NCBI GenBank assembly: GCA_021736185.1
Contig: JAIPGJ010000019.1
Span: 1 to 32,591, forward strand
Direction: 5' to 3'
DNA: 32,591 bases
Source: Fidelibacterota bacterium
GTDB lineage: Bacteria > Fidelibacterota > UBA8477 > JABMPR01
How positions within the stretch are numbered: the stretch's first letter is position 1; each line of letters starts with the position of its first letter. Position numbers and translations under genes: made by a program. The notes under the pieces are model-generated. The model searched no databases and was not told where the DNA came from. It saw only the letters and a program-made list of their open reading frames with translations. This document shows, in pieces, positions 802 through 32,591 of the stretch.

Positions 802-1881
802 CTAATTATCATCCGGTTCTACGACAATCATATTGGATGCAAGATCCTCAATCACTCTTTGTTCAAGACCATCTGCGGTCTCTCGTAGACGCCTCAGCTC
901 CCTGGGTTTTGCGCCTGTCGGCAGTTTTCCCAGATTACATATAGGTTCTCCCGGACTGATCGCCGGTAATGTCGTCATGCCAATGACAACGGCGTCAAAG
1001 GGAGCAACCAGGGTATTCTGATCATCACCCAGAAGCGTGGTATTGGTTGCCAGGGGTTGCCCCTGATCAACGATATCCCCTGGAGATACATGGAATTGCA
1101 TGAATCCTCCAAAATCAGCCCGAATCCATTTTGATTTTTCGATAATCAATTGATACTTAGGCATCTCAGGGGTCCCCTCCAACATCCCGAGTTTGCGAAG
1201 TACGTTTTTTACTCCACGTACGGCTGTTTCCACGATAGTAGGTTCAACTTTCCAAACTTCGCCACCTTCCATAATAATGGTTGGACAGCCTGCTTTGCTC
1301 GCTTCACGACGAAAGCCACCCACCGGTCCAACACCATTGAGAATAATCTCGCTGCCGAATGATTTGGCTAGCTTTCGAACCATTGGATTTGACAGGTCAC
1401 CACGAACATTGGGATAGTTGGTGCGACGAATCGAGGCAGTGTGAAGATCAATTCCAAAATCAGAGATGGCGACGATCTCATCAAATAAGATTCGTGCCAT
1501 GCGGGAAGCTAAACTGCCACCTGTTGTTCCAGGAAATGAGCGATTCAAATCCCGACGATCAGGGAGATATCTGCTGTGTCTGTCAAAGGCCAGCAAATTC
1601 AGAACGGGGATCAGAATGAGGGTTCCACATTTCAACTGAAATTCATCATCCTGGATTAATTGGCGTACAGCTCCCGTGCCATTAATCTCGTCGCCGTGAA
1701 GTGCTGCAGTGACAAAAACAACCGGTCCTTCTTTTTTTGATCGACGCACATGAATGGGTATTTGAACGTCCATACTGCTATAACTCTCACCTACTGTAAG
1801 GGTCACATTTCGTGATTCTCCAGGCAATATCTTATGACCAAACCACATATCGATAGATTTCCGTTGAAGCGGCTCATTCAT
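802..1881 (-). CDS. Succinylglutamate desuccinylase/aspartoacylase (AstE/AspA) family zinc hydrolase
   Basis: This is a zinc carboxypeptidase-fold deacylase of 359 residues. The metal and catalytic pattern is visible: HGDE at residues 62-65, DLHT with His147, and EGGE near 205-208. The C-terminal part (about 255-320) looks like the small beta/lipoyl-like domain seen in this family. The reading frame opens at a TTG (1887), but I chose ATG at 1881 because a strong GGAGG lies 9 bases before it and only 3 bases before the TTG. It overlaps the end of the RimK-like gene by 8 bases, so translation is probably coupled. The family removes acyl or amino-acid groups from amide bonds. Beside a RimK ligase and a protease, it may act on glutamate tails rather than free succinylglutamate (inference). 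Confidence 0.88.
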   Translation of the reverse strand: MNEPLQRKSIDMWFGHKILPGESRNVTLTVGESYSSMDVQIPIHVRRSKKEGPVVFVTAALHGDEINGTGAVRQLIQDDEFQLKCGTLILIPVLNLLAFDRHSRYLPDRRDLNRSFPGTTGGSLASRMARILFDEIVAISDFGIDLHTASIRRTNYPNVRGDLSNPMVRKLAKSFGSEIILNGVGPVGGFRREASKAGCPTIIMEGGEVWKVEPTIVETAVRGVKNVLRKLGMLEGTPEMPKYQLIIEKSKWIRADFGGFMQFHVSPGDIVDQGQPLATNTTLLGDDQNTLVAPFDAVVIGMTTLPAISPGEPICNLGKLPTGAKPRELRRLRETADGLEQRVIEDLASNMIVVEPDDN

Positions 1882-3136
1882 CGCCAATTACCTCCAGTGG
1901 AGTACCATGGCTTGCAGCCAGGTCTTTGGGATTCATCAATACTTCCTCAGCAGCTGGCAAATCAGGTAGATCTTGAATCTCTGCACGTCTTCTCTTCCGG
2001 GCCTTGGCAGGAATAAGCTCCCTCATCAGCTCAAGTTTACCAAAACATAATAAACGATCTTCTGGTTCAAGGACGCGACTGGCCTTGGGGTTCGGGATAA
2101 CTATGGTGCCACGATAGAGGGTCAATACGTTGATATCTCGGTCTCTTAATCCAGATTCTGTGATGGTCTTGCCCACATATTTAGATGTTTTAGGAATGTG
2201 GATTTCAGCCACACCATAGCCTTTACTCACTGTGAGCCTTTGTCTCAAGTCTATATCGGCATAATTAACATGCGCAGCAATATAATCGATGATATTCCCG
2301 GCTATATCCAACTGAGTAGCTCCTTCAATACCCTCCAATCCAGGTGATGAATTCACTTCAAGAACCTGGGGACCATGCTTGCCTTCAAGCAGATCAACTC
2401 CGGCGATTCTAAGGCCCATAATCTGGGCAGCCCGTACAGCGGTGTCATGATACTCTTCATTCAATTCAACGGCTTCCGTGAGTCCACCACGATGGACATT
2501 GCTTCTAAATTCCTGTCCCTGTGCTGTACGCCGCATAGCTCCAACCACTCTATCCCCGACAACAAAGGCGCGAATATCCTTGCCTTTGCTTTCCACTACA
2601 AATTTCTGAATCAGAACATTCTGTTTTTGGCTCTGGAGCATTTCAATAATGGCTTCGGCTGCTTTAATCGTTTCAGCCAGCAATACACCTATCCCCTGGG
2701 TGCCTTCGATTAACTTGATAATGACTGGAGCACCACCTACGCGGCGGATGGCTGGTAAAACATCCCGCTTATCACGTACAAAAGTGGTTTGTGGAATCCC
2801 AATATGATGACGGCTGAGTATCTGTAGACTTCTCAGTTTATCTCTTGAGGTGGCAATGCCAATGGCAGGGTTGGCGGTAAAAACGTCCATCTGCTCAAAT
2901 TGACGGACTACAGCGGTGCCGAAATAGGTGATTGATGCTCCGATTCTTGGCAGCACTGCATCATAATGAGAAAGGCGTTTCTGCCGAAAATATAGATCAG
3001 GATGACCTTCCTCAAGATCAATAGCAAATTTAAGAGTATCCAAAACCTTGACATTATGGCCCCGTTGAACTGCTGCTTCTCGAAGTCGTCTTGTGCTGTA
3101 GCACTTGGCGTTAGATGACAATATCGCTAATTTCAT
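1874..3136 (-). CDS. RimK-type ATP-grasp glutamate ligase fused to an RCK_C (TrkA-C) domain
   Basis: Residues 1-300 are a RimK-like ATP-grasp ligase. A pre-ATP-grasp domain is followed by Lys141, the glycine-rich EGTQGIGV (144-151) and the metal-binding EVNSSPGLEG (270-279). RimK adds glutamates to the C-terminus of ribosomal protein S6 in gammaproteobacteria. The protein is 420 residues, about 120 longer than E. coli RimK. The extra part, about 302-385, has the RCK_C/TrkA-C pattern (VGKTITESGLRDRDINVLTL, then EDRLLCFGK), a ligand-binding regulatory domain usual in potassium transporters. A Lys/Arg-rich then acidic tail follows. ATG at 3136 overlaps the TAA of the upstream protease gene by one base, with AAGGA upstream. 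The substrate is not shown by the sequence. Confidence 0.88.
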   Translation of the reverse strand: MKLAILSSNAKCYSTRRLREAAVQRGHNVKVLDTLKFAIDLEEGHPDLYFRQKRLSHYDAVLPRIGASITYFGTAVVRQFEQMDVFTANPAIGIATSRDKLRSLQILSRHHIGIPQTTFVRDKRDVLPAIRRVGGAPVIIKLIEGTQGIGVLLAETIKAAEAIIEMLQSQKQNVLIQKFVVESKGKDIRAFVVGDRVVGAMRRTAQGQEFRSNVHRGGLTEAVELNEEYHDTAVRAAQIMGLRIAGVDLLEGKHGPQVLEVNSSPGLEGIEGATQLDIAGNIIDYIAAHVNYADIDLRQRLTVSKGYGVAEIHIPKTSKYVGKTITESGLRDRDINVLTLYRGTIVIPNPKASRVLEPEDRLLCFGKLELMRELIPAKARKRRRAEIQDLPDLPAAEEVLMNPKDLAASHGTPLEVIGDE

Positions 3137-3642
3137 TATATATTTTTTCCTTGGTTTAATTGAGTATCACTTTCAGCCGAACTTCTTTTTTTTCGCTTAG
3201 GTTTGCCATTGTAATAAGATTGACCAGCATCAACCAGAAAACGACCACGAAAGGCTTCTCTGCCAAGCAGCATCCTGAAGCCCATTTTGTCTCGACTAGC
3301 CAGGGTCAATTCCACCGGCCAGCTTTCCCCTAATAGTTCTATGGAAGTGATCACTACCGGGCGTATCGATGCTTTTCCGCTGGAACTTCTTACTCGCCGA
3401 TATTCAAGAACCCTGGTATCAACGTCCACTGTAATGACTGTTTTTCTCTGGACAGGATGTACCTTAAATCTGGCCCATGTTTCACCATCTTTCTTATACT
3501 CATGCAAGTCATAGACATGCAAAGATGAAGATCGGGCTCCAGTATCGACTTTTACTTTGATGCTTTTAATACCAAAATCAGGCAGCCCGACCCATTCACG
3601 CCAGCCAATGATAGGTTTTGTTTTTAGACTCTTTTTTTTCAT
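3136..3642 (-). CDS. Retropepsin-like protease of the PF05618 (RimB-type, 'ATP-dependent zinc protease') family
   Basis: This is a 168-residue protein with a retroviral-protease-like fold. The catalytic-type motif DTGARSSSLH lies at residues 33-42, and LLGREAFRGRFLVD at 125-138 is the other conserved signature of the family. The C-terminal tail is basic and looks disordered. Members often sit beside RimK-type ligases, and that is the arrangement here: the stop codon overlaps the start of the RimK-RCK_C gene. I chose ATG at 3642; an in-frame GTG at 3678 would add 12 residues that fit the family poorly. The likely role is cleaving or trimming a substrate of the adjacent ligase (inference from context). 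Confidence 0.85.
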   Translation of the reverse strand: MKKKSLKTKPIIGWREWVGLPDFGIKSIKVKVDTGARSSSLHVYDLHEYKKDGETWARFKVHPVQRKTVITVDVDTRVLEYRRVRSSSGKASIRPVVITSIELLGESWPVELTLASRDKMGFRMLLGREAFRGRFLVDAGQSYYNGKPKRKKRSSAESDTQLNQGKNI

Positions 3643-3728
3643 TATTTTCCAGTTGGGTATTAATTCATCATATAACACAGGTAGTCACATCAGCGCTTCA
3701 TTCCTGTATAGCTCTTCATATTAGTTCA

Positions 3729-5443: not shown

Positions 5444-6253
5444 CTAGAAGAGTATCCTGAAGCCGATTTCACCCAAATGATTCTCAAGATCTTTTACAAA
5501 AGTATCATAAAAATGATATTCATAAAATAGTCCGGCATAGCGGGAGTGGCCCTTAAGGAGAATATTGATGGTCACTGATCCCTTGTATTCAGTGGTATCA
5601 TCCCGATTGAGCCAAAGTTGTTGATTCAAATCAGCGTAAATAATTGAATTTTTAATGTTACCGAATTGATAGCGTAAAAGATTACTGAATTCGTAATGGA
5701 AGTTATGATTCTGGCCATCCCGCAGGGAATGGGCGGCTTTTTTATAATAAGCCATCCCTATGCGTCCATCAAAACGCTTCATACTTAACAGCGGGGTATC
5801 AGGAGGAGGTTCGGCCAGATAGAGGTTAAAAGCTCCCTTGGATCCGATGCGCAGTAAATAGGCATTCCACCAGGTCGATCCTGCAATCTCAGGTCGATTT
5901 ATCAAATGGATGCAATCATGATGCAAATCACCGCGGATGACCCACTTCCCCATATCCAGTCGCCCTCCGTAAGTATAGGTGTAGATGATGCGATCCAGAT
6001 AATAGATGGAGTCCGGGTATTGGGAAATATCAGTGGTATTGCCCATTAATAGAGTGAAAGTAAAAGCTTTCCAGGTGAATATATCCACAATTTGAATAAA
6101 CTCTGATCGATGGCTGCGTCTCAGATCTTTTTGATCTTTTTGGCCATGAACATAGGATTCCAAAGTGAGCCAACCATGTGTCTGTAAGGGAAAATCTGCT
6201 TTGGATTCAGCATGAAATAGGGCAATAAAAATGATAATCATTACCATTTTCAT
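5444..6253 (-). CDS. Secreted beta-barrel-like protein, first of a tandem paralogous pair
   Basis: This 269-residue protein has a signal peptide (MKMVMIIIFIALFHAESKA) and a strand-rich mature part ending in Ile-Leu-Phe, consistent with an outer-membrane barrel. It is homologous along its length to the next gene downstream (4604-5443). The frame contains an earlier ATG at 6295, adding 14 residues. I prefer 6253 for two reasons: the signal peptide then starts the protein, and a perfect extended -10 (TGATATAAT) overlaps the 6295 ATG and would start the transcript downstream of it. Neither start has a good Shine-Dalgarno. The function is unknown. Confidence 0.7.
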   Translation of the reverse strand: MKMVMIIIFIALFHAESKADFPLQTHGWLTLESYVHGQKDQKDLRRSHRSEFIQIVDIFTWKAFTFTLLMGNTTDISQYPDSIYYLDRIIYTYTYGGRLDMGKWVIRGDLHHDCIHLINRPEIAGSTWWNAYLLRIGSKGAFNLYLAEPPPDTPLLSMKRFDGRIGMAYYKKAAHSLRDGQNHNFHYEFSNLLRYQFGNIKNSIIYADLNQQLWLNRDDTTEYKGSVTINILLKGHSRYAGLFYEYHFYDTFVKDLENHLGEIGFRILF

Positions 6254-6293
6254 AAATCGCGATGATCTGAGATGCTCAATATATAGTTGTGGC

Positions 6294-6302
6294 ATTATAT
6301 CA
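6294..6302 (-). promoter_or_regulatory. Candidate extended -10 promoter for the three barrel genes
   Basis: The minus strand reads TGATATAAT, a perfect extended -10 element, immediately before the secreted-protein cluster. No convincing -35 lies 16-18 bases upstream, as is usual for extended -10 promoters. Transcription would begin near 6287, inside the longest version of the reading frame. This favours the internal ATG at 6253 as the translation start. Confidence 0.4.
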
Positions 6303-6439
6303 AATCTAAGTACTGAATTGCTATTTCCAATATGAATTGGGATTTGACCCTATGATTTAAGCAATCAAACCTTAAATATTTGGTTAAAAATAAAAAATCC
6401 TTTCTCTTATTATGATCCTATATTCAGCCTTTCTCAATA

Positions 6440-6457
6440 AAGGAGGATACAAGCATA
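6440..6457 (+). promoter_or_regulatory. Perfect Shine-Dalgarno followed by an ATA codon (non-canonical start)
   Basis: AAGGAGGAT spans 6440-6448. The AGGAGG core ends at 6446, and eight bases later comes ATA (6455-6457), in frame with the long downstream ORF. No ATG, GTG or TTG occurs in any frame within normal distance of this ribosome-binding site. A TATGAT hexamer at 6411-6416 could be the -10 of a promoter, but its -35 is not clear. Confidence 0.6.
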
Positions 6458-9400
6458 ATAAGTTCATTTTTCAATCCTGCTGAGACAAAAAGGGATCAGT
6501 CGCTGCACCAGGATGCAGAAGCCTGCAGTCAGGCCCTCCTCACGGTGAGATCCACTGTAATTCAGCAGTGGATTGATGCTTTTCGTGATCTCCTTCAAGC
6601 CCATCAGGAACTGGATCAGACCAGCAAAAATGCATTGGAAGATCAACTCAAGGGGGAGTTTAAATTTCCAGTTTTGCTGGAGCAGCTTGAGAGCACCATC
6701 CCGCAGTATTTAAAATTAGCTAAAAATCTGCCAAATGTTGAAACTAACTATGATCCTAAAAGCCTATTACAGGCCTGGGATGACCAATACAACGAAGCTA
6801 TCAAAGGTGTTTCACGACAATTCAGTGTGTCTATTCCGCATAAGCATCTTCAGACGCTAGACACTGATTCGACTCAAATAAAAATCTGGAAATCCGCACA
6901 AAGAACAAGACTTAGGAGTTGGGAGCTGATTGTTTCCACTCAGAACCAGTTTAGAAGAATCCTGAAAAAAAAGCAACTTGGCAAACCAAAATTTAAGCGC
7001 CGGATAGCCTATCGTGATTATTTGGATGCAATGATCCACTTGCCTGTAACTGAACGACTCCAGAAAATCTGGGACCATTTCGTTGTAGGAATGGCTGAAA
7101 ACATCATTTTACTGCATGAACGTACTTTGAGTCATCTCTATAATCTTATGCTGCTCCAGGAGCAGCATCGCGTACTCAAAAAAAAGGAATTAAATGAGGT
7201 CCTCAATCAACTGCGGGAGATTCGTGATAATTGGGATGGCTTGTCTGAATTCATTCAAAACATAGATGCCCTTGAAAAGGACATAGATGATCAACTGGAA
7301 GACATTCAGATTGCCATATCCAAAGAGATGGCCTCAAACTGGGTGTTTATTGGCACCTGGCTGCATCCCAACCTACTGAACCACCACCCCCGAATTGAAA
7401 ATAGATTGAGAAGAAATAAAAAAAGGCTGGAAAAGTCATGCCATAACTGGCTGCTCTATTTTGAAGGGGAAAAGGAGGATCGTCATATAGATCTGGAGCT
7501 GGGTTTGCTCCAGACTCAAATTTCACTAAGACTCCTGGCTGGCCTGCAGGCCATTCGGGACCAAATCACGCACCAGATCCTCCCCGCCTTTGTTAACCCC
7601 CATCAGGTCATTAATGATGCCTTGAAAAGGTTTCGTGAGTTCGAGTCCAGTACTGAAAGCAAATTGAAGCGGAGTATCGCCAGTGAAAATCGTCAATTAT
7701 TACGAAATCTTCGTCGAGAACTCCTGCCTCGGATTTTAGACAGTCTGTTACAAGCAAGATTGTCTGAACGCCTGAATAGTTTGAACTCTCAGGTCAAATA
7801 CCTGATGGACCAACTGCCGGAGAGTCATCGAATATTCAGGGGACAACGACTGTCAAACGGGAAACCATCCACTCGTTTTATGGATATTGAAATCAAGGCT
7901 CTGGCACTGGGCGAAGTGTACCCCAAGTTATCTGAGCAATTTGAAGCTTTCAGCGATAGTATAAATGACCAAACGGATAAGTTGGGTCGCGATGTCACCG
8001 AGATTGATCAAATTATTGAATTTAATCTGGGTGCAGCGCTTGAATTGCTTTCTGATGAAGAACATCAAGGCGCTACTGATGGAGCCTACACTGTAGTTGT
8101 TGAGGGATTGGAGCGTACCCGCGGACAATTGGGTTTATTGATTGAAGAGAGTCAACATATTCAAATGCTCTGTCAGGAGACCCTACCCTTAATTTCTCAA
8201 AATGCGGGTCTAAGTCTGAAAGAACTGGCAGATAACGAGAAAGTTATTCAGCTACAGATTCGTGTAACCAGGACCAAACTAAAACAGAAGCTGCTTTCTT
8301 TCCGTTTTCGAGTGTTGGAAATGCTGCGCTCTCTATGGCCTCATATCAGATCCAATATTGCCAGTGCATATCATGCCATGCTTGGCTGGTATCGCCGTAT
8401 ACGCAAGATCACCGGGCTCGCTACCGTCCCAACCGATATTGATAAGCAGCTGAATCTCTACCTATCCGGTACTCGCAGACAGATTGATGCGCTGCCATTT
8501 GTCTATCAGCGCCTGTTTAGATTTGAACCGGCTGTGGATGAGCGATTTTTTATTGGACGGGAGCAGGAATTACTCCAAATCCAGAAAAATTATAGTGATT
8601 TCAAAATCGGAAGTCATTCATCAACAGCTATTGTAGGTGAAAGCGGCAGTGGTCGCACCAGTCTACTGAACATGGCTGAAACCAAGTATTTAAGCGCTAC
8701 TACCAGCTACAGAATCAATCTATCTGCCTCTATTCATACTATTCCAGAATTATGCAGCATTCTCAGTGAAGGTCTTAATCAACCGAAGATCAATACGATA
8801 GAAGAAATTGCTGACTATCTAAACCAGAAACCGACCCAGGTGGTCTTTATTGTCGAGAATATTCAGAATATGTTCCTGCGCTATCCCGGTGGTTTCGAGG
8901 CAATAAAACGATTCCTGCTGCTCATGAACGAAACAGCCAAGCATGTTTTCTGGATCGTATCGTGCGGCTTATATAGTTGGGCTTATTTTGAACGTATCAT
9001 TAAAATTGGTGGCTTTTTCCAGGAGATCATTAAGCTTCAGGAATTGGATAACGATACCATTGAAAATGTCATTATGAAACGGCACCGGGTCAGTGGATAT
9101 CAGCTAGAATTTAAAATCCCGGAATCCATGGTCAGGAATCGACGATTCAAAGCTTTCAGTACTGATCACGAACGGCAGGATATGTTAAGAAAATACTTCT
9201 TTGAAGAATTAAACCGATTGGCAGCAGGGAATTTAACTGTGGCCATCATATTTTGGTTAAAAGCAGTGCAGGAAATAAAATCCGACCGATTCATTATTGC
9301 GCCATTCATAGAATTTGATCCGACCTTTCTGGCCCATATGCCTGCTCAGGATCTTTTTTCTTTTGCTGCCTTCTTACAGCATGAAGTTCTTACCATAGAG

Positions 9401-9565
9401 GATCATGCAAGAGTATTTCATCAAGATTACGAAACCAGCCTGCTGCAAATATCACGACTTGAGAAAAACGGGATGCTGGTGAGAAAATCAGGAGGATATC
9501 AAATACATTATCTCCTCTATCGTCCCGTCGTAAAAACCCTAATTCTTCATAACATTATTCACTAG
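6455..9565 (+). CDS. Large helical protein with C-terminal P-loop ATPase and winged helix, partner of MscS
   Basis: With the proposed ATA start the protein has 1036 residues; the first standard start in frame is GTG 6545 (1006 residues), which lacks a ribosome-binding site. About the first 670 residues are charged, helical and coiled-coil-like with no transmembrane segment. The ATPase module follows, with FIGREQELLQIQ leading to Walker A GESGSGRTS (residues 728-736) and a Walker B-like VVFIVEN (Glu801). This resembles the AAA/Orc-STAND class. The last 90 residues look like a winged helix (a basic and hydrophobic ...RLEKNGMLVRKSGGYQIH... pattern). It is cytosolic. The MscS gene begins 6 bases after its stop, so the two probably work together, with the ATPase as a possible gate or sensor. 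No known family name could be assigned. Confidence 0.85.
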   Translation: MISSFFNPAETKRDQSLHQDAEACSQALLTVRSTVIQQWIDAFRDLLQAHQELDQTSKNALEDQLKGEFKFPVLLEQLESTIPQYLKLAKNLPNVETNYDPKSLLQAWDDQYNEAIKGVSRQFSVSIPHKHLQTLDTDSTQIKIWKSAQRTRLRSWELIVSTQNQFRRILKKKQLGKPKFKRRIAYRDYLDAMIHLPVTERLQKIWDHFVVGMAENIILLHERTLSHLYNLMLLQEQHRVLKKKELNEVLNQLREIRDNWDGLSEFIQNIDALEKDIDDQLEDIQIAISKEMASNWVFIGTWLHPNLLNHHPRIENRLRRNKKRLEKSCHNWLLYFEGEKEDRHIDLELGLLQTQISLRLLAGLQAIRDQITHQILPAFVNPHQVINDALKRFREFESSTESKLKRSIASENRQLLRNLRRELLPRILDSLLQARLSERLNSLNSQVKYLMDQLPESHRIFRGQRLSNGKPSTRFMDIEIKALALGEVYPKLSEQFEAFSDSINDQTDKLGRDVTEIDQIIEFNLGAALELLSDEEHQGATDGAYTVVVEGLERTRGQLGLLIEESQHIQMLCQETLPLISQNAGLSLKELADNEKVIQLQIRVTRTKLKQKLLSFRFRVLEMLRSLWPHIRSNIASAYHAMLGWYRRIRKITGLATVPTDIDKQLNLYLSGTRRQIDALPFVYQRLFRFEPAVDERFFIGREQELLQIQKNYSDFKIGSHSSTAIVGESGSGRTSLLNMAETKYLSATTSYRINLSASIHTIPELCSILSEGLNQPKINTIEEIADYLNQKPTQVVFIVENIQNMFLRYPGGFEAIKRFLLLMNETAKHVFWIVSCGLYSWAYFERIIKIGGFFQEIIKLQELDNDTIENVIMKRHRVSGYQLEFKIPESMVRNRRFKAFSTDHERQDMLRKYFFEELNRLAAGNLTVAIIFWLKAVQEIKSDRFIIAPFIEFDPTFLAHMPAQDLFSFAAFLQHEVLTIEDHARVFHQDYETSLLQISRLEKNGMLVRKSGGYQIHYLLYRPVVKTLILHNIIH

Positions 9566-9571
9566 AAAACC

Positions 9572-10528
9572 ATGAATTATCAACTAAAAATAGTCACTGC
9601 TCTGCTCCTGTTCTTTGGTTTCACCACGACGCTTATTTCACAATTGAACCCGGGACCAAGTATACCTGACAGCGTCTCGGTCGCTGCAGAGAGCGTTTCC
9701 ATATCCGAAACCTCACCTATAGCCGTGAACCTTGCCCAGCCCGAATGGTCAATTACCAGGGATAAAGTCATCTGGGCTATACTTGTGGCACTTATCGGCT
9801 TCGCTCTTATCAAATACCTCTCCCGACTGCTTGAGCGTCTGGGTGAGCGGTGGATCAAATTTCGCTTAACCATCAAGGGACTGGTTCCCATACTGAGAAT
9901 TGCGGGCTGGATCATCATATTATACATCATCATTGTGGACCTTCTGGCTCCCCCCATAGCCACCATTGTGGCATTGACTGCATCTGCTGGAATCGCAGTG
10001 GGCTTTGCCTCCCAGGATATTCTCAAGAATATCTTTGGCGGCATCATGATTTTGTTTGATCGACCCTTTCAAGTGGGAGATAAAATTCAGGTCGGTAGTC
10101 ACTATGGCGAAGTAGTTGGAATCGGCATGCGCACGGTTCGCATCACGTCTCCTGATGATAGTCTGGTATCCATCCCCAATAGTGAAATCGTGAACACCTC
10201 TGTCAGTAATTCAAACTCTGGAGAACATTATTGCCAGGTTGTTTCAGAAGTATACCTGCAACCAGATGTTGACCTGACAGCGGTTCGCAAGCTGGCTTAT
10301 GAGGCGGCAGCTATGTCACAATACATCTATTTAAATAAACCGATTCAGATCATTATTAAGAATGAAATTCATCAGGGACAATCGTTACTCAAATTGAGAT
10401 TAAAGGCTTATGTCCTGGACATCAGGTATGAGTTTGCCTTTGCCAGTCAAATGACGGAAATTTTACTCGGCCAACTCTCGCAAGCCCAATTGCCCTTTAC
10501 GCCTACTGAAATTCCCCACAACAAATAA
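9572..10528 (+). CDS. MscS-family mechanosensitive channel paired with an ATPase
   Basis: This is a 318-residue small-conductance channel. A signal-like hydrophobic N-terminus (1-24) is followed by a Ser/Val-rich, probably periplasmic stretch to about residue 60. Membrane helices then lie near 66-84 and 105-126. The pore helix (about 130-157) has ATIVALTASAGIAVGFASQD, and the signature FGGIMILFDRPFQVGD leads into the beta domain, with SIPNSEIVN. A C-terminal alpha/beta domain completes the fold. The Cys and His residues show no pattern. No Shine-Dalgarno is visible, so translation is probably coupled to the ATPase gene six bases upstream. The channel is shorter than MscK-type proteins and has no fused sensor domain; the separate ATPase may supply that role (inference). 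Confidence 0.93.
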   Translation: MNYQLKIVTALLLFFGFTTTLISQLNPGPSIPDSVSVAAESVSISETSPIAVNLAQPEWSITRDKVIWAILVALIGFALIKYLSRLLERLGERWIKFRLTIKGLVPILRIAGWIIILYIIIVDLLAPPIATIVALTASAGIAVGFASQDILKNIFGGIMILFDRPFQVGDKIQVGSHYGEVVGIGMRTVRITSPDDSLVSIPNSEIVNTSVSNSNSGEHYCQVVSEVYLQPDVDLTAVRKLAYEAAAMSQYIYLNKPIQIIIKNEIHQGQSLLKLRLKAYVLDIRYEFAFASQMTEILLGQLSQAQLPFTPTEIPHNK

Positions 10529-25741: not shown

Positions 25742-28700
25742 CTACTGCAAATAGACCATTTTTATCACCTGTGAAAAATCTCCACAGTTAAGTTTAGCAA
25801 AGTACATACCTGTACTCACCTCCAAGCCCGCTGAGTTCAAACCATCCCACTGCAGGTTATACATACCGGGAGTCTGGTGGTCCAACTGCCACGATTTGAC
25901 TTCAGAACCACGAATGTCATAAATGGTCAGACTCACATCAGAAACTTCAGGAAGGGTATACCGTATTGTCGTTGTAGGGTTGAATGGGTTTGGATAATTC
26001 TGGTATAGCTCAACTACCGTTGGTAGCTGGCTGATTGAATCGTCAATATCAGTCTGATACGTTCCATTTGCCGACATCCGCAGACTGTCAACGACCTCTC
26101 CGTCAGAATTGATACATTCTAAATACAGTTCATCATCATCAACCTGGAACTTAACATAGTTCCATAGCGATTCTGTGTATTCCAGCCACCAACCATTCGG
26201 TGAATTGTTATAGATTGGGCCTCCCATGGTGCCCGTTTGCATTTGAAGTCTTCCCTGTCCTTCAGCACTGCCGTACATTTCAACTGGCTCAGATTCAGAA
26301 ACTTGTAAATTGATGGGTTTCGAACGTGTGTAGGTGTGTTCGTGACCATTGAGAATGATATCTACACCATACTCATCAAACAACCTCCACCAATGGGGAA
26401 TCGCAGCGTCCATTTCTCCAGCGTGTCCACCCGTTGTGAAAAAGGGTCGGTGGAAATAGACAATGATCCAGGTTGCATCGGTCGTGGCCAGGATATTTTC
26501 CATAAACGACATCTGGGTGGAGAGTTGCCCCTCTGAATTAAGATTGATAACCAGGGTGTTACCCTGTTCAAAATAGAACCACTTCTCCAAACCGGGCTGT
26601 ACAAACTGATTCAGGAATGCGATCCCGGAGTCAGTATCATAATAAGTATGATTTGAGGGCGTATAGAAAGTCAGTGAATTCTCAAGGAATTCTTCACCAT
26701 AGGCATAATACTGTTCTTCCCATAGACCGGAATACAGGGTATTGTCCACAATGTCTCCTGGCATGAGATAAAAATCGGCATTTTCATCCGACGCCATGGT
26801 GGAGATTGCTTGCCAGGGTATGGTTCCAGTTTGTTGATCACCACCTGTAATAAAGCTGAATTGACTTGATGCCGTATCGACAGAAGTTGAATAGGATTTT
26901 GTCTCGCCCCACAAACCACTATACTTAAGTGAATAATAGATATCTGTAAGTGGGTCCAACACTGGGAAAGTATAGTCAAATAAATACAATGGACCTTCAC
27001 CATAGCTATAATTATTACGTCGGACTCCAGGGAAGGCTCCCATTTCGAATTCCGTAGTATAGCCCCAGCGCAGGGAGTCATTTTCCGATCTATTACTCCA
27101 GGTTATGGTTAATCCTCTGAGCGTGTTATGATAAGTTCCCCACCTGATGGCATATGGGAATGATATCCAGGGCCACCATGTTTCAGCACCCAAGCGGATC
27201 ACTCCAAGGTTATCAAAAAGGACTGCAGGCGAATTGACAGGATAGGAAAAATCACCATTCTCAGGGTCAATCATCAACGGATCAGCCTGGGCGACGACGT
27301 TGATTAGTTGGAAATCTGTCGCTCCCGAACTGAGATCAATATCACGGGTATTAAAATACAAGAAATTCTCAATGCGTGAATTGGTTCCATAAATCTTAGC
27401 CGGTGCATAGTCAGTATTCATCACAGGTAGAACAACTATTGAATTGCTTATGACAGCCCCATCCACATAATGAGGGATGATATTATAGCTGCCACAGTCA
27501 TAGACAGTGACCTTATTGACAAAAAATTCAGGATCAGGTGTGGTAACATCAGAATCAGCACCATCCACATAAATGGCTTCCGAGCTCATATCCCAAAAGG
27601 TACAATTTTCAACCATGAAGTAATTTACTGATCCAGTAGGAGTAACGGGATCATTGAAACTGATTCCCATATCGAGGATATGTGCAAAATAACAATCCTC
27701 GACAAGTACTGAATCGATAACGGAAGTCACATCACCATATATTCCAAAACCAGATGTCTGTTCTGCATTTTCAAAATTCAGAAAATCCGTATTGGTTACA
27801 GTAAGATTATAGCCACTTGTACCTGGTGAGTTCGTGATGGCTGTTGTCGTAGCCGCACCACCCAGGGAACCATCAAGGATGACGCCATCCAGAGTAAAAT
27901 TAGATGAGATTTCAAACATCGCTCCTGTTGCTGCCGAGACAATAGTTGGTCGGGAAGTGAGACCCGATGCAACTTTGAGACTTACATCATGGGTGACAGT
28001 CAGGGTAGCGCTTTCCTCATAGGTACCCCCATCAGTTGTCAGGAGAATGGATTGACCATCTACAGCATTGGAAAGTGCAGTTGAGATGCCATCAGTCCCG
28101 GCTGAAACAAAGATATATTCTGTATTATTTTCTGGCCACCAACGTGGATCTCCCAGATGGCTGCCATCGTCACCTGCACTCAAGGCAGGTGATCCGGGGA
28201 GCAAAGTAAAATTTCCACCCGCAGCGCTGGCGTATAGCGGGTCCATTCCTGCCTGGACATTTGATAATTGACTGACCAGGGCGCCTTGTTGTAAGCCAAC
28301 AGCAGCAAAATTATTGTAGAGGATATTACTTACTTGAGAACTGGTGCCAAAAATGATACAGGCTGGATCTGGTGAGCTTGCAGAACTGGTCATAATGGAA
28401 TTCTTAATGACTGCTCCATTAATATCTCTGGGGTAAATATTGCCGTTGGTTGCATCATGAATAGTGACATGGTCAACCTGGAAATCGATGGCAGGATTAG
28501 CATCAATGCTGGTTGCCTGGACATAAATCGCATAACCACTAATGTTCCAGAAGCTTGAATTTTCACAAATGAACTGATTAACAGCTCCGGGAGCCGTTCC
28601 ACCTGTGCTGAACTGGATAGCCGACCGAGCCATGTTCACAAAAGTACAATTGCTGATGGTGACAGTTCCCAACTGGTTTTGATCTTCACCATAGATGGCG

Positions 28701-29140
28701 TGGTTGGTGTTGACAAAATCACAATTCAGCAAGGTCATATCAAAACCAATGGTAAGTTCATACCATTCTGGTTCGGCACAGCGAATAATGACCTCTCGCG
28801 TTCCCCCACTGATGGAGCCATCAAGGATGATTCCATCCAGGGTCAATCCATCAGCAGGCAGAACCAGGGCCCATCCACCGGTGGCAGACCATCTGGGTTT
28901 CTCTGCCAGTCCAGCAGCGGCCCGAACTGTGATTGGCTTTCCTGCATCAATGACGAGATCATTTTCTTCCTCATAATCGCCACCACTGGTAATCAATTCA
29001 ATAATGTCTCCTGCAGCGGCATCATCATAGGTATCAGAAATGGTGCTTTCACCGGCTGCAATTTGGTGAATAGTTTGCGATATTCCGCTTATCGCCATCG
29101 ATAAGATGAGGATAAAAGCGAATATAAATTTTGATTTCAT
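25742..29140 (-). CDS. T9SS-secreted protein: two beta-helix modules plus purple-acid-phosphatase-like metallophosphoesterase
   Basis: This protein has 1132 residues. A Sec signal peptide (1-21) is followed by two parallel beta-helix modules (about 30-336 and 337-657), each ending with a DPRWWP/ETWWP-type motif and resembling DUF5123/DUF4957-type lyase-like repeats. A fibronectin-like domain of the purple acid phosphatase type comes next (about 661-760). The metallophosphoesterase domain (765-980) has GGDQQ (Asp768), GDIVDN (Asp796), SNHTYYD (Asn830, His831), FHRPF (His897) and GHEHTYTR (His933, His935). The GNHE of the family is SNHT here, but the ligand residues remain. The C-terminus (1047-1132) is a T9SS type A sorting domain (NYPNPFNPTTTIRY). 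AGGAG precedes ATG. It probably acts outside the cell on phosphate esters while bound to a surface or glycan (inference). Confidence 0.9.
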   Translation of the reverse strand: MKSKFIFAFILILSMAISGISQTIHQIAAGESTISDTYDDAAAGDIIELITSGGDYEEENDLVIDAGKPITVRAAAGLAEKPRWSATGGWALVLPADGLTLDGIILDGSISGGTREVIIRCAEPEWYELTIGFDMTLLNCDFVNTNHAIYGEDQNQLGTVTISNCTFVNMARSAIQFSTGGTAPGAVNQFICENSSFWNISGYAIYVQATSIDANPAIDFQVDHVTIHDATNGNIYPRDINGAVIKNSIMTSSASSPDPACIIFGTSSQVSNILYNNFAAVGLQQGALVSQLSNVQAGMDPLYASAAGGNFTLLPGSPALSAGDDGSHLGDPRWWPENNTEYIFVSAGTDGISTALSNAVDGQSILLTTDGGTYEESATLTVTHDVSLKVASGLTSRPTIVSAATGAMFEISSNFTLDGVILDGSLGGAATTTAITNSPGTSGYNLTVTNTDFLNFENAEQTSGFGIYGDVTSVIDSVLVEDCYFAHILDMGISFNDPVTPTGSVNYFMVENCTFWDMSSEAIYVDGADSDVTTPDPEFFVNKVTVYDCGSYNIIPHYVDGAVISNSIVVLPVMNTDYAPAKIYGTNSRIENFLYFNTRDIDLSSGATDFQLINVVAQADPLMIDPENGDFSYPVNSPAVLFDNLGVIRLGAETWWPWISFPYAIRWGTYHNTLRGLTITWSNRSENDSLRWGYTTEFEMGAFPGVRRNNYSYGEGPLYLFDYTFPVLDPLTDIYYSLKYSGLWGETKSYSTSVDTASSQFSFITGGDQQTGTIPWQAISTMASDENADFYLMPGDIVDNTLYSGLWEEQYYAYGEEFLENSLTFYTPSNHTYYDTDSGIAFLNQFVQPGLEKWFYFEQGNTLVINLNSEGQLSTQMSFMENILATTDATWIIVYFHRPFFTTGGHAGEMDAAIPHWWRLFDEYGVDIILNGHEHTYTRSKPINLQVSESEPVEMYGSAEGQGRLQMQTGTMGGPIYNNSPNGWWLEYTESLWNYVKFQVDDDELYLECINSDGEVVDSLRMSANGTYQTDIDDSISQLPTVVELYQNYPNPFNPTTTIRYTLPEVSDVSLTIYDIRGSEVKSWQLDHQTPGMYNLQWDGLNSAGLEVSTGMYFAKLNCGDFSQVIKMVYLQ
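27170..28132 (-). repeat. Beta-helix module 2 of the phosphoesterase protein (type A)
   Basis: This unit of 321 codons ends at ETWWP. It is of the same type as the two units at 29593-31512 in the neighbouring gene, sharing blocks such as MGISFNDP, NCTFWDM, EAIYVDG and IENFLYFNTRDIDLS with nearly identical spacing. Confidence 0.85.
28133..29053 (-). repeat. Beta-helix module 1 of the phosphoesterase protein (divergent)
   Basis: This unit of 307 codons ends at GDPRWWP. It follows the same layout as the other modules (an ISDTYDDAAAGD-like start, LDGIILDG, NCTF, SSFWNI) but is clearly diverged from the type A units. Confidence 0.75.
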
Positions 29141-29175
29141 CGGTACTCCTGGAGTTATTGCGTTGCTTAAACATT

Positions 29176-29207
29176 GCGGAGAACCAGGGTCTACCCTGAT
29201 TCTCCGC
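29176..29207 (-). terminator. Long GC-rich hairpin after the giant repeat gene, probable terminator or mRNA end
   Basis: GCGGAGAA.CAGGGT pairs with ACCCTG.TTCTCCGC (15 positions each side, one mismatch, 2-base centre). It lies about 60 bases after the stop codon at 29269 on the minus strand. No strong U-run follows, so it may act as a 3' stabiliser or processing site rather than an intrinsic terminator. Confidence 0.5.
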
Positions 29208-29268
29208 GAATCTCACATCAATTTATTGATCCTCATACATCCTGGGATCAATGCTTGAAACATTCGAG

Positions 29269-32200
29269 TTATTTCAAATAGAGCATCTTCTTGGTTTGAA
29301 CAAAGCTACCACTGCGAATCGTGTAGAAGTAGACACCTCCACTCACACTCGTGCCACTACTGGTCAGACCATTCCAGCTTGTCTGATAATATCCAGGCTG
29401 CATCTCACCATTCACCAGGCGATTGACTTCCCGACCCAATACATCATGAACAACCAGACTCACGTTACCTGCTTCAGGCAGCTGGAAGTCAATCAAAGTG
29501 GTTGGGTTAAAGGGGTTGGGATAGTTCTCAGCTAAGAGATAGGTCGTTGGAATTTGCTCTTTAGCATTATCCACACCAACTGGAAGCAAGAACCACCATC
29601 TATCATCACCAATGGCCACACGCTCACCAGCCACAGTCAGATAGGCTGGAGAATTCTCCGGATAGGAGAAATCACCATTCTCTGGATCGGTAAGCAGCGG
29701 ATCTTCCTGAACAACCACATTGATCAGTTGAAAATCGGTTGCGCCACTACTGAGATCGATGTCACGGGTATTAAAATAGAGGAAGTTTTCGATAACTGAG
29801 TGAGCGCCATAGATTTTTGCAGGCGCAAACGCCGTTTCCAAAACTGGATAGACCACCATTGAATTTGTGATGACCGCATAATCAATGTAATGAGGTATAA
29901 TATTGTAACTACCGCAATCATAAACAGTCACTTTATTCACAAGGAACTTTGGATCAGGAGTAGCAACATCTGAGTCAAAACCATCCACATAAATAGCTTC
30001 TGAGTTCATGTCCCAGAAAGTACAGTTGTCAACTTCAAAGTAGTTAACAGAACCAGTTGCCGTAAGAGGATCATTAAAACTGATACCCATATCCAGTATG
30101 TGGGCGAAGTAGGAGTTCTGGACAAATACGGAATCAACAACAGAAGAAACGTCGCCATAAATTCCAAATCCACGACTGGCATTGACATCTTCCATATTGA
30201 GAAAATCGCAGTTCAATACGGTGAGGTTATAACCTGAAGTATTGGCTGCATTCTTAATGCCTGTGTTTGACATGGCTGCACCAAGGGCACCATCGAGAAG
30301 CACACCATCCAGCAGGAAGTCTGCGGAAAACTCAATCATGGCACCCGTTGCACCAGAAGTGATCATTGGTTTATCCGTCAAACCTTCGGCAGCTATTATT
30401 CTTACTGCTTTATCAACGACCAGCGTTGCTGATTCATCATAGGTTCCACCATCAGTAGTCAGGACAATGGTGAGGCCCGGGCTGGCTTCAGCAAGGGCAG
30501 CAGATAATACATCGGTCCCAGCGGCAAGGTCAAGAGTTGCACCCCATACCACGGGCCACCAGCGACTATCTCCGAGAAGTGCTGGGCCATCTTCAGTAGC
30601 AATGACAGCAGGCGAGCTCATGGGATAAGAGAAATCCCCATTCTCAGGATCAGTCAGGAGAGGATCCTCCTGAACGACCACATTAATCAGCTGAAAATCA
30701 GTGGCACCACCACTGAGATCAATATCACGCGTATTAAAATAGAGGAAGTTCTCTATCCTGGAATTTATTCCATATATCTTGGCAGGAGCATACGCTGTTT
30801 CTAGCACCGGCAGGACTACCATAGAATTGGTAATCACAGCATAATCGATATAATGGGGAATAATACTATAGTCACTACAATTGTAGACCGTGACCTGATT
30901 CACCAGAAACTCTGGATCGGGTGTACTCAAATCTGAGTCACTGCCATCTACATAGATTGCTTCATCGTGCATATCCCAGAAGGTACAGTTATCCACTTCA
31001 AAGTGATTGACTGAACCTGTGGCTGTGATTGGGTCGTTAAAGCTGATACCCATCTCCCAGATGTGGGCAAAATAGCTGTTCTGCACAAATACAGAGTCTA
31101 CAACAGAAGTCGGGTCACCAAATATGCCAAACCCCTGAGTTTCAGCTGCATCAACCATATTTACAAAATCTGAATTCAATACTGTCAGGTTATACCCTGA
31201 GGTGCCGGGAGTGTTGGTGAGACCTACCGCAGTGGCGGCTCCACCTTGGGCACCATCCAGAATGACACCATCCAGCACGAAGTCTGCTGAAAACTCGATC
31301 ATGGCATCTGTAGATCCGGAGATGATCATCGGTTTTTCATCAAGTCCAACTCTAGCAGCGAGGCGAATATTTTTATCAATGATTAATGTTGCGGATTCTT
31401 GATAAACACCACCATCAGTAACCAAATAGATGGTCTGACCGGCGACTGCTTCAGCGAGGGCTGCAGCTATGCCATCAGTACCAGCGACAACAACCAGGTC
31501 GACAGAACCTGCTGGCCACCAGCGGGGATCACCAATGGGCAAGCCCGTGGTACCAACACCAAGGGCCGGTGAACCGGCTTGCAGGGTAAGGTCACCATTG
31601 GCTGGATCTGTAAACAGCGGATCAGCATTAATCATATTCTCAGCGATACCATAGCTCCCACCGATATGGGTTCCGGGGAAATTCCAGTACAATGAGTTTA
31701 GAATGGTTGAGCCGTTATAGAAATAAAAGAAGGTATTCCCTACATCGGCAGGATTGGCGGCGATGACATTCGTCACCATGGCGCCCAGAATATGTGAAGG
31801 ATAAATTCCCTTATCATCAATATCATAGAAAGTGACTTGATCAACCACCAGGTTGACCTCTGACACATCGCTCTCAAATGGATATACAGCAATGACATCG
31901 TCACCGATATTGATAAATGTGGAATTGGTGACGGACAGATTCTTGACGCCAGCAGGACTGATGTCATCTGTATTAAAAGCAATGGCCTTGTCACCAATGT
32001 TGGTGATTAAACAGTTATTAAAGCTGACCAGTTCTGCTTGTGTACCCGTTCTGCTGGCAAGGATACCGGTTGTAAAATTGGTGAAGTCACAATTCTCCAC
32101 AACCAGCTCATATCCCATTCGGGCCGAAGCATCGTAGGGGTCAAAAGCCATGTCAGATGCGGCAGCACCCTGTGCACCATCCAGCATGACGCCCGCAAGA

Positions 32201-32591
32201 TTGAGATGATTGTAAAGCTGGATCATGCTGCTATCAGAATCACTTATCAGCACTGGTTTGTCCGTCAGACCTGCAGCAGCGCGGATGGTAATTTCTCTAT
32301 CAATGATAAGCGTACTGGTTTCCAGGTAGCTGCCACCATCAGTAATCAATTCAAGTACATCACCAGCACCTGCAGCAGCCAGGGCGGTTGAGATAGCATC
32401 GGTTCCAGCAGCAACTTCAAACACGGTAGCAGGCCACCAACGTGGATCACCAATACTCTGACCTACGGTCCCAGCATCGATAGCAGGAGATCCTTCCAGT
32501 AAAGTCAAGTCTCTATTGGCTGCATCAGCTAACATGGGATCAGCATTGATCATATTTTCAGCAGTGCCATAGCTGCCACCTAAATGAGTCC
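29269..32591 (-). CDS. Giant T9SS-secreted beta-helix repeat protein, 5' end outside the window
   Basis: 1106 residues are visible, and the frame stays open to the right edge. An internal ATG at 32553 is not the start: the codons before it match the module sequence (GTHLGGSYGTAEN). The visible part holds the end of one module, one type B module, two type A modules (320 and 321 codons) and a C-terminal T9SS type A sorting domain beginning NYPNPFNPTTLIDF. The modules carry parallel beta-helix and DUF5123-like features (NCTFWDM, EAIYVDG, ISFNDP) and a terminal GD.RWW motif. Extracellular polysaccharide lyase, binding or adhesin roles are all possible. No enzymatic domain is seen in this part. 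Confidence 0.88.
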   Translation of the reverse strand, partial: THLGGSYGTAENMINADPMLADAANRDLTLLEGSPAIDAGTVGQSIGDPRWWPATVFEVAAGTDAISTALAAAGAGDVLELITDGGSYLETSTLIIDREITIRAAAGLTDKPVLISDSDSSMIQLYNHLNLAGVMLDGAQGAAASDMAFDPYDASARMGYELVVENCDFTNFTTGILASRTGTQAELVSFNNCLITNIGDKAIAFNTDDISPAGVKNLSVTNSTFINIGDDVIAVYPFESDVSEVNLVVDQVTFYDIDDKGIYPSHILGAMVTNVIAANPADVGNTFFYFYNGSTILNSLYWNFPGTHIGGSYGIAENMINADPLFTDPANGDLTLQAGSPALGVGTTGLPIGDPRWWPAGSVDLVVVAGTDGIAAALAEAVAGQTIYLVTDGGVYQESATLIIDKNIRLAARVGLDEKPMIISGSTDAMIEFSADFVLDGVILDGAQGGAATAVGLTNTPGTSGYNLTVLNSDFVNMVDAAETQGFGIFGDPTSVVDSVFVQNSYFAHIWEMGISFNDPITATGSVNHFEVDNCTFWDMHDEAIYVDGSDSDLSTPDPEFLVNQVTVYNCSDYSIIPHYIDYAVITNSMVVLPVLETAYAPAKIYGINSRIENFLYFNTRDIDLSGGATDFQLINVVVQEDPLLTDPENGDFSYPMSSPAVIATEDGPALLGDSRWWPVVWGATLDLAAGTDVLSAALAEASPGLTIVLTTDGGTYDESATLVVDKAVRIIAAEGLTDKPMITSGATGAMIEFSADFLLDGVLLDGALGAAMSNTGIKNAANTSGYNLTVLNCDFLNMEDVNASRGFGIYGDVSSVVDSVFVQNSYFAHILDMGISFNDPLTATGSVNYFEVDNCTFWDMNSEAIYVDGFDSDVATPDPKFLVNKVTVYDCGSYNIIPHYIDYAVITNSMVVYPVLETAFAPAKIYGAHSVIENFLYFNTRDIDLSSGATDFQLINVVVQEDPLLTDPENGDFSYPENSPAYLTVAGERVAIGDDRWWFLLPVGVDNAKEQIPTTYLLAENYPNPFNPTTLIDFQLPEAGNVSLVVHDVLGREVNRLVNGEMQPGYYQTSWNGLTSSGTSVSGGVYFYTIRSGSFVQTKKMLYLK
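29593..30552 (-). repeat. Type A beta-helix module, last copy
   Basis: This 320-codon unit ends at GDDRWW. It aligns with 30553-31512 at the DNA level with an offset of 963 bases at several points. Differences are largely at synonymous positions. Confidence 0.88.
30553..31512 (-). repeat. Type A beta-helix module, second-to-last copy
   Basis: This 320-codon unit ends at GDSRWWP. It shares nearly all structural blocks with the following unit and with module 2 of the phosphoesterase protein. It differs locally, for example by HDEAIYVDG instead of SEAIYVDG. Confidence 0.88.
31513..32430 (-). repeat. Type B beta-helix module
   Basis: This 306-codon unit ends at GDPRWWP. It carries GTHIGGSYGIAENMINADPLF near its end, and the window-edge codons repeat the same block (GTHLGGSYGTAENMINADPML). 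At least two type B units therefore stand next to each other, one of them mostly outside the window. Confidence 0.85.

Follow-up and report, generated by a model that had tools for sequence, protein, structure and literature searches.

AUA is already known as a bacterial start codon, of a rare kind. The available excerpts of a study on S. aureus (PMC13009471) describe AUA starts of infC, ccpN and citZ, each behind a strong, extended Shine-Dalgarno sequence (SD); in these excerpts, reporters of the ccpN and citZ AUA starts reach about 10% of the AUG level in poor medium, and the ccpN reporter reaches up to 30% in rich medium. According to the same source, conservation of the ccpN AUA extends to B. 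subtilis, this start was experimentally tested, and the citZ AUA is lineage-specific in S. aureus. For Listeria rsbW, the excerpted text of PMC13068326 reports ATG to ATA variants, with the start strength decreasing in the order ATG > ATA > ATT; the excerpted part of PMC11497404 contains nothing on AUA as a start. Our literature search on start codons yielded no report of an AUA start on an ATPase gene of the type analyzed here.

The window, that is, the entire 32,591-nt stretch of DNA under analysis, corresponds to contig C45 in the draft genome of a Fidelibacterota bacterium (2.74 Mb, 161 contigs, 89% complete). Apart from the ATPase locus, the window encodes, in a row on the minus strand (805-3678), an AstE/AspA-type deacylase, a RimK-like ligase with a TrkA_C domain and a Zn_protease-family protein. 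Also on the minus strand (25742-32553) are genes for two long proteins with repeated segments and an NPFNPTT-type C-terminus, which we take to be a type IX secretion sorting signal.

Anatomy of the start region

The frame of the ATPase gene follows an in-frame TGA (6413-6415), is open from 6416 to 9562 and ends at a TAG stop (9563-9565); its first in-frame ATG, GTG or TTG is the GTG at 6545 (Table 1). The first-pass annotation had pointed to a strong SD 8 nt before ATA 6455 and to a first canonical start that lacks an SD, and all of this was confirmed in the sequence: the SD match is 7 nt long for ATA 6455, 4 nt (AAGG) for CTG 6503, and none is found for GTG 6545. ATA 6455 is a near-cognate codon at SD distance, with the canonical start absent behind the SD; at 4-12 nt behind AAGGAGG, no ATG, GTG or TTG followed by at least 30 open codons was found in any frame. 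The 8-nt spacer is of acceptable length but counts against an AUA start, given that the spacer distribution in this genome peaks at 5-6 nt; the rise of the GC content from 0.23 to 0.53 at about position 6476 was counted in its favor. The N-terminal residues were originally given as ISSFF, which holds with ATA 6455 translated as Met, but the literal frame is Ile-Ile-Ser-Ser-Phe.

Table 1. Features of the ATPase gene start and its surroundings in the window.
Feature	Positions	Strand	Source
Left arm CTTATTATG of a perfect 9-bp inverted repeat	6406-6414	+	
Shine-Dalgarno AAGGAGG	6440-6446	+	sequence
Right arm CATAATAAG of the repeat, contains ATA	6454-6462	+	
ATPase gene, 1036 aa with ATA as the start	6455-9565	+	
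ATA, most likely the start, with the SD 8 nt upstream	6455-6457	+	
Adjacent second ATA, with the SD 11 nt upstream, less likely as the start	6458-6460	+	
CTG, in frame, rival start, 4-nt SD AAGG	6503-6505	+	
GTG, first canonical in-frame codon, without SD, at a strong hairpin	6545-6547	+	
Hairpin directly behind GTG 6545, 10 pairs	6549-6574	+	
MscS-type channel gene, 6 nt downstream of the ATPase stop, without its own SD	9572-10528	+	Pfam

The SD is bracketed by a perfect 9-bp inverted repeat, which may form an RNA hairpin or serve as an operator. We regard this repeat as suggestive only, because shuffled sequences yielded an arm on ATA in 4 of 500 cases and an arm somewhere in 77 of 500. The fold of the leader overall is not unusual (z = -1.06).

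Rarity of the arrangement in the genome

The frequency of such gene starts was assessed in a sample of 40 stretches of the same genome together with the window (393,237 bases), which contains 234 simple genes, the target included. An SD of at least 7 nt within the open stretch ahead of the first canonical start is present in three of these genes, again counting the target; in the other two, the SD lies one codon ahead of the canonical start and is an ordinary SD, so that the target alone among the 234 genes has a core SD of at least 7 nt well upstream of the first canonical start. When an SD of at least 6 nt located more than 5 codons upstream is accepted, one further case appears, in L023, where the match is GGTGAT and the GGAGG core is lacking. 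At least 43 open codons ahead of the first canonical start, as in the target, are found in 2.6% of the genes. Across the genome sample, SDs of at least 6 nt showed no clear enrichment at near-cognate codons (2 of 162) compared to other codons (12 of 1770), which counts against such starts being habitual in this genome.

Non-AUG starts in the lineage

Initiation factor IF3 was detected in 10 of the 12 relatives searched, and at all 10 loci read, the place of the infC start is occupied by ATC or ATT. ATC is found in all six genus loci read and also in G021; ATT is found in G020, G022 and the phylum relative G023. In the window genome (where infC is located on contig C6, away from the ATPase locus) and in the close relative G006, ATC immediately follows an in-frame TAG and is preceded by AGGGAG, and the next canonical codon corresponds to residue 27, past the start of the conserved region (loci L048 and L046). 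Because its infC starts at ATC after an in-frame TAG, non-AUG starts occur in the window genome, and the lineage very probably makes use of them. The 3' end of 16S rRNA with the anti-SD, GGATCACCTCCTT, was found in 5 of the 19 genus genomes; the assembly of the window genome, from which that 16S end seems to be missing, did not yield it.

Orthologs and remote homologs of the ATPase

The ATPase gene is present in 2 of the 19 genomes of the genus, including that of the window. The only close ortholog, in G006, shares 69% identity with the window ATPase across the last 238 residues, and comparison of these codons (pN 0.185; pS 0.919, saturated) indicates purifying selection. The G006 contig C2 begins inside the ATPase gene, and the upstream neighbor is on contig C88, which ends inside the counterpart of the window gene 5444-6295; the start of the G006 gene thus falls in an assembly gap of about 3 kb. 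In G017, the neighbor genes are present and the ATPase is absent. At the phylum level, a 3-row profile finds matches in 7 of 245 genomes at an E-value of 1e-20. The remote full-length homologs G056 (L003) and L007, the latter being the single relative identified in a search of genome contigs, begin with ATG, at other positions, and their N-terminal regions of approximately 100 residues are strongly diverged from that of the window ATPase. Similarity ahead of GTG 6545 is weak: with the 30 additional residues included, the alignment score with L007 rises by 8, a gain matched by 11% of shuffles, and the alignment with L003 becomes worse. No relative was found among the viral contigs searched, and searches of plasmids and for near-identical DNA produced no match; a blastn comparison of the window with L013-L015 likewise gave no hits and was left out of the evidence.

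The ATPase and its channel partner

The ATPase domain, nSTAND1/AAA_22, maps to residues 684-895, approximately, with scores above the curated cut-offs (nSTAND1, PF20703, 31.9 bits versus 27.1; AAA_22, 31.9 versus 27). Searches with PADLOC and NCBIfam assigned no family to this ATPase, with just weak matches around the P-loop of the window protein. In each of the seven loci with flanks read (the window, G006, G056, L007, G022, G021 and G220; the G020 locus did not resolve on the scanned strand), a gene of the ATPase family adjoins an MscS-type channel gene, and all seven channels score above the Pfam cut-off for MS_channel_2nd. Both gene orders occur among these loci, the channel gene coming first in L007. 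The seven loci (window 6455-10528; L002, L003, L005, L006, L007, L018) come from distant lineages, and their large AAA/nSTAND1-type ATPases are about 1000-1700 aa long. Possibly, the pair constitutes an ATPase-controlled channel module; a literature search combining STAND ATPases and mechanosensitive channels found no paper on such a pair. Given that the MscS gene follows the ATPase stop codon after 6 nt and has no SD, translational coupling of the channel to the ATPase appears likely, in which case a weak start of the ATPase gene would limit both proteins.

Choosing among the possible starts

A standard gene finder would start the gene at GTG 6545. This codon is the first canonical start, in 61 of the 234 genes of the sample, none of the canonical starts within the first 40 codons has an SD, and the remote homolog L003, counted from its ATG, is 1005 aa long, close to the 1006 aa of the window ATPase counted from GTG 6545. 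We nevertheless consider this start improbable. The cost of opening the mRNA over positions -18 to +12 is 18.4 kcal/mol at GTG 6545, compared to the mean of 8.8 kcal/mol for 48 reference genes with ATG and SD, of which 4% reach such a cost; together with the hairpin at this codon (-16.4 kcal/mol), this makes GTG 6545 a poor start, the coding signal is already apparent in 6503-6544, and the SD is missing. The same hairpin, located inside the ATPase coding sequence near its 5' end, is terminator-like by pattern. CTG 6503, which would follow the AAGG after a 6-nt gap and turn 6455-6502 into leader, is likewise a near-cognate start, and the codon score taken alone would favor it: the score is -2.8 bits for coding in 6455-6502 and +4.3 in 6503-6544, and in comparison with 42 clear gene starts, the 15 codons 6458-6502 rank at the 7th percentile. 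Codon statistics lend no support to coding in 6455-6502; a simpler codon-usage scan placed all 30 codons (score -0.5) at the 8th percentile of real coding windows. An AlphaFold2 model from a 3-row alignment (mean pLDDT 52) predicts a helix at 8-55 that spans residue 31, at pLDDT below 40, as is the case across the N-terminus, where the model is too poor to bear on the choice of start. Still, a start at CTG 6503 is unlikely: its SD is just 4 nt long, opening is costlier, at 11.7 kcal/mol, and the 7-nt SD upstream would be left unexplained. The opening cost at ATA 6455 is 8.3 kcal/mol, about the median of the reference genes. The SD, this accessibility, the lack of a rival start behind the SD, the case against GTG 6545 and the infC precedent together make AUA 6455 the best reading, and it is most likely the start codon in use.

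If AUA is the start, its origin has to be considered. A recent change from ATG to ATA in the strain or in a strain mixture is a serious candidate, which we rate at somewhat short of even odds; the SD would have been made for ATG, and the present allele would be leaky and attenuated rather than a regulatory device. Such a change has published parallels, as far as the excerpts go, in the ATG to ATA variants of Listeria rsbW (PMC13068326) and the lineage-specific AUA of S. aureus citZ (PMC13009471); the ATPase gene is patchily distributed in the genus, and with ATG, the pairing of 6406-6414 with 6454-6462 would still hold through a G-U pair. Against it, neither the ATPase frame nor the channel gene behind it is disrupted, and no decay is seen. 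This scenario overlaps with the preferred explanation, since in both the gene starts at AUA today, and the probabilities assigned to the individual readings do not add up to one. A sequencing or assembly error masking a true ATG at 6455 might be suspected in a draft assembly as fragmented and incomplete as this one, but the error would have to hit exactly one base in a gene otherwise free of frame errors, and we find it hard to credit. It also seems doubtful that AUA has been fixed under selection as a control point acting with the 9-bp repeat, such that the ATPase-MscS operon, with its coupled output, would be sensitive to the IF3 level or growth state.

Discussion

The explanation that we favor, with a probability of roughly 0.65, is that AAGGAGG recruits the 30S subunit, initiation with fMet would then occur at the near-cognate AUA 6455 to produce the 1036-aa ATPase, and this initiation would be weak, AUA being disfavored by IF3 and the P site; translation of the MscS gene is probably coupled to that of the ATPase, so that both proteins would be kept at a low level by the weak start. 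From the anatomy of the start region, its rarity in the genome and the non-AUG start of infC, all directly observed, we infer the use of AUA, its weakness and the coupling. The weakness is a fair inference from the published AUA starts, at about 10-30% of AUG, and to that extent the throttling of synthesis proposed in the first-pass annotation stands. The autoregulation of the infC type suggested along with it does not apply, because infC autoregulates by virtue of encoding IF3, and the product here is an AAA/nSTAND1 ATPase. Gene finders limited to ATG, GTG and TTG would drop 30 residues of the ATPase together with its true start. If correct, this reading extends the AUA starts beyond the few species tested, and it draws attention to a conserved ATPase-MscS gene pair, the output of which such a start would limit.

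Compared to the known systems, the locus resembles Listeria rsbW (as described in the excerpts of PMC13068326) in that the start codon of one partner in a stoichiometric pair would be weakened; unlike the rsbW variants, which are selected mutations of a known ATG, no ATG ancestor is seen at the window ATPase. With the AUU, AUC and AUA starts of infC, it shares a near-cognate start behind an SD and the lack of a usable canonical start, and infC of the window genome itself has ATC; the ATPase, however, is not IF3, which leaves no direct autoregulatory loop. The ccpN AUA is conserved and experimentally tested, whereas the AUA in the window is known from the sequence of one genome; with this difference, the locus resembles ccpN, citZ and infC of S. 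aureus, as they are presented in the excerpts of PMC13009471, in that a strong SD precedes an AUA codon of a protein-coding gene.
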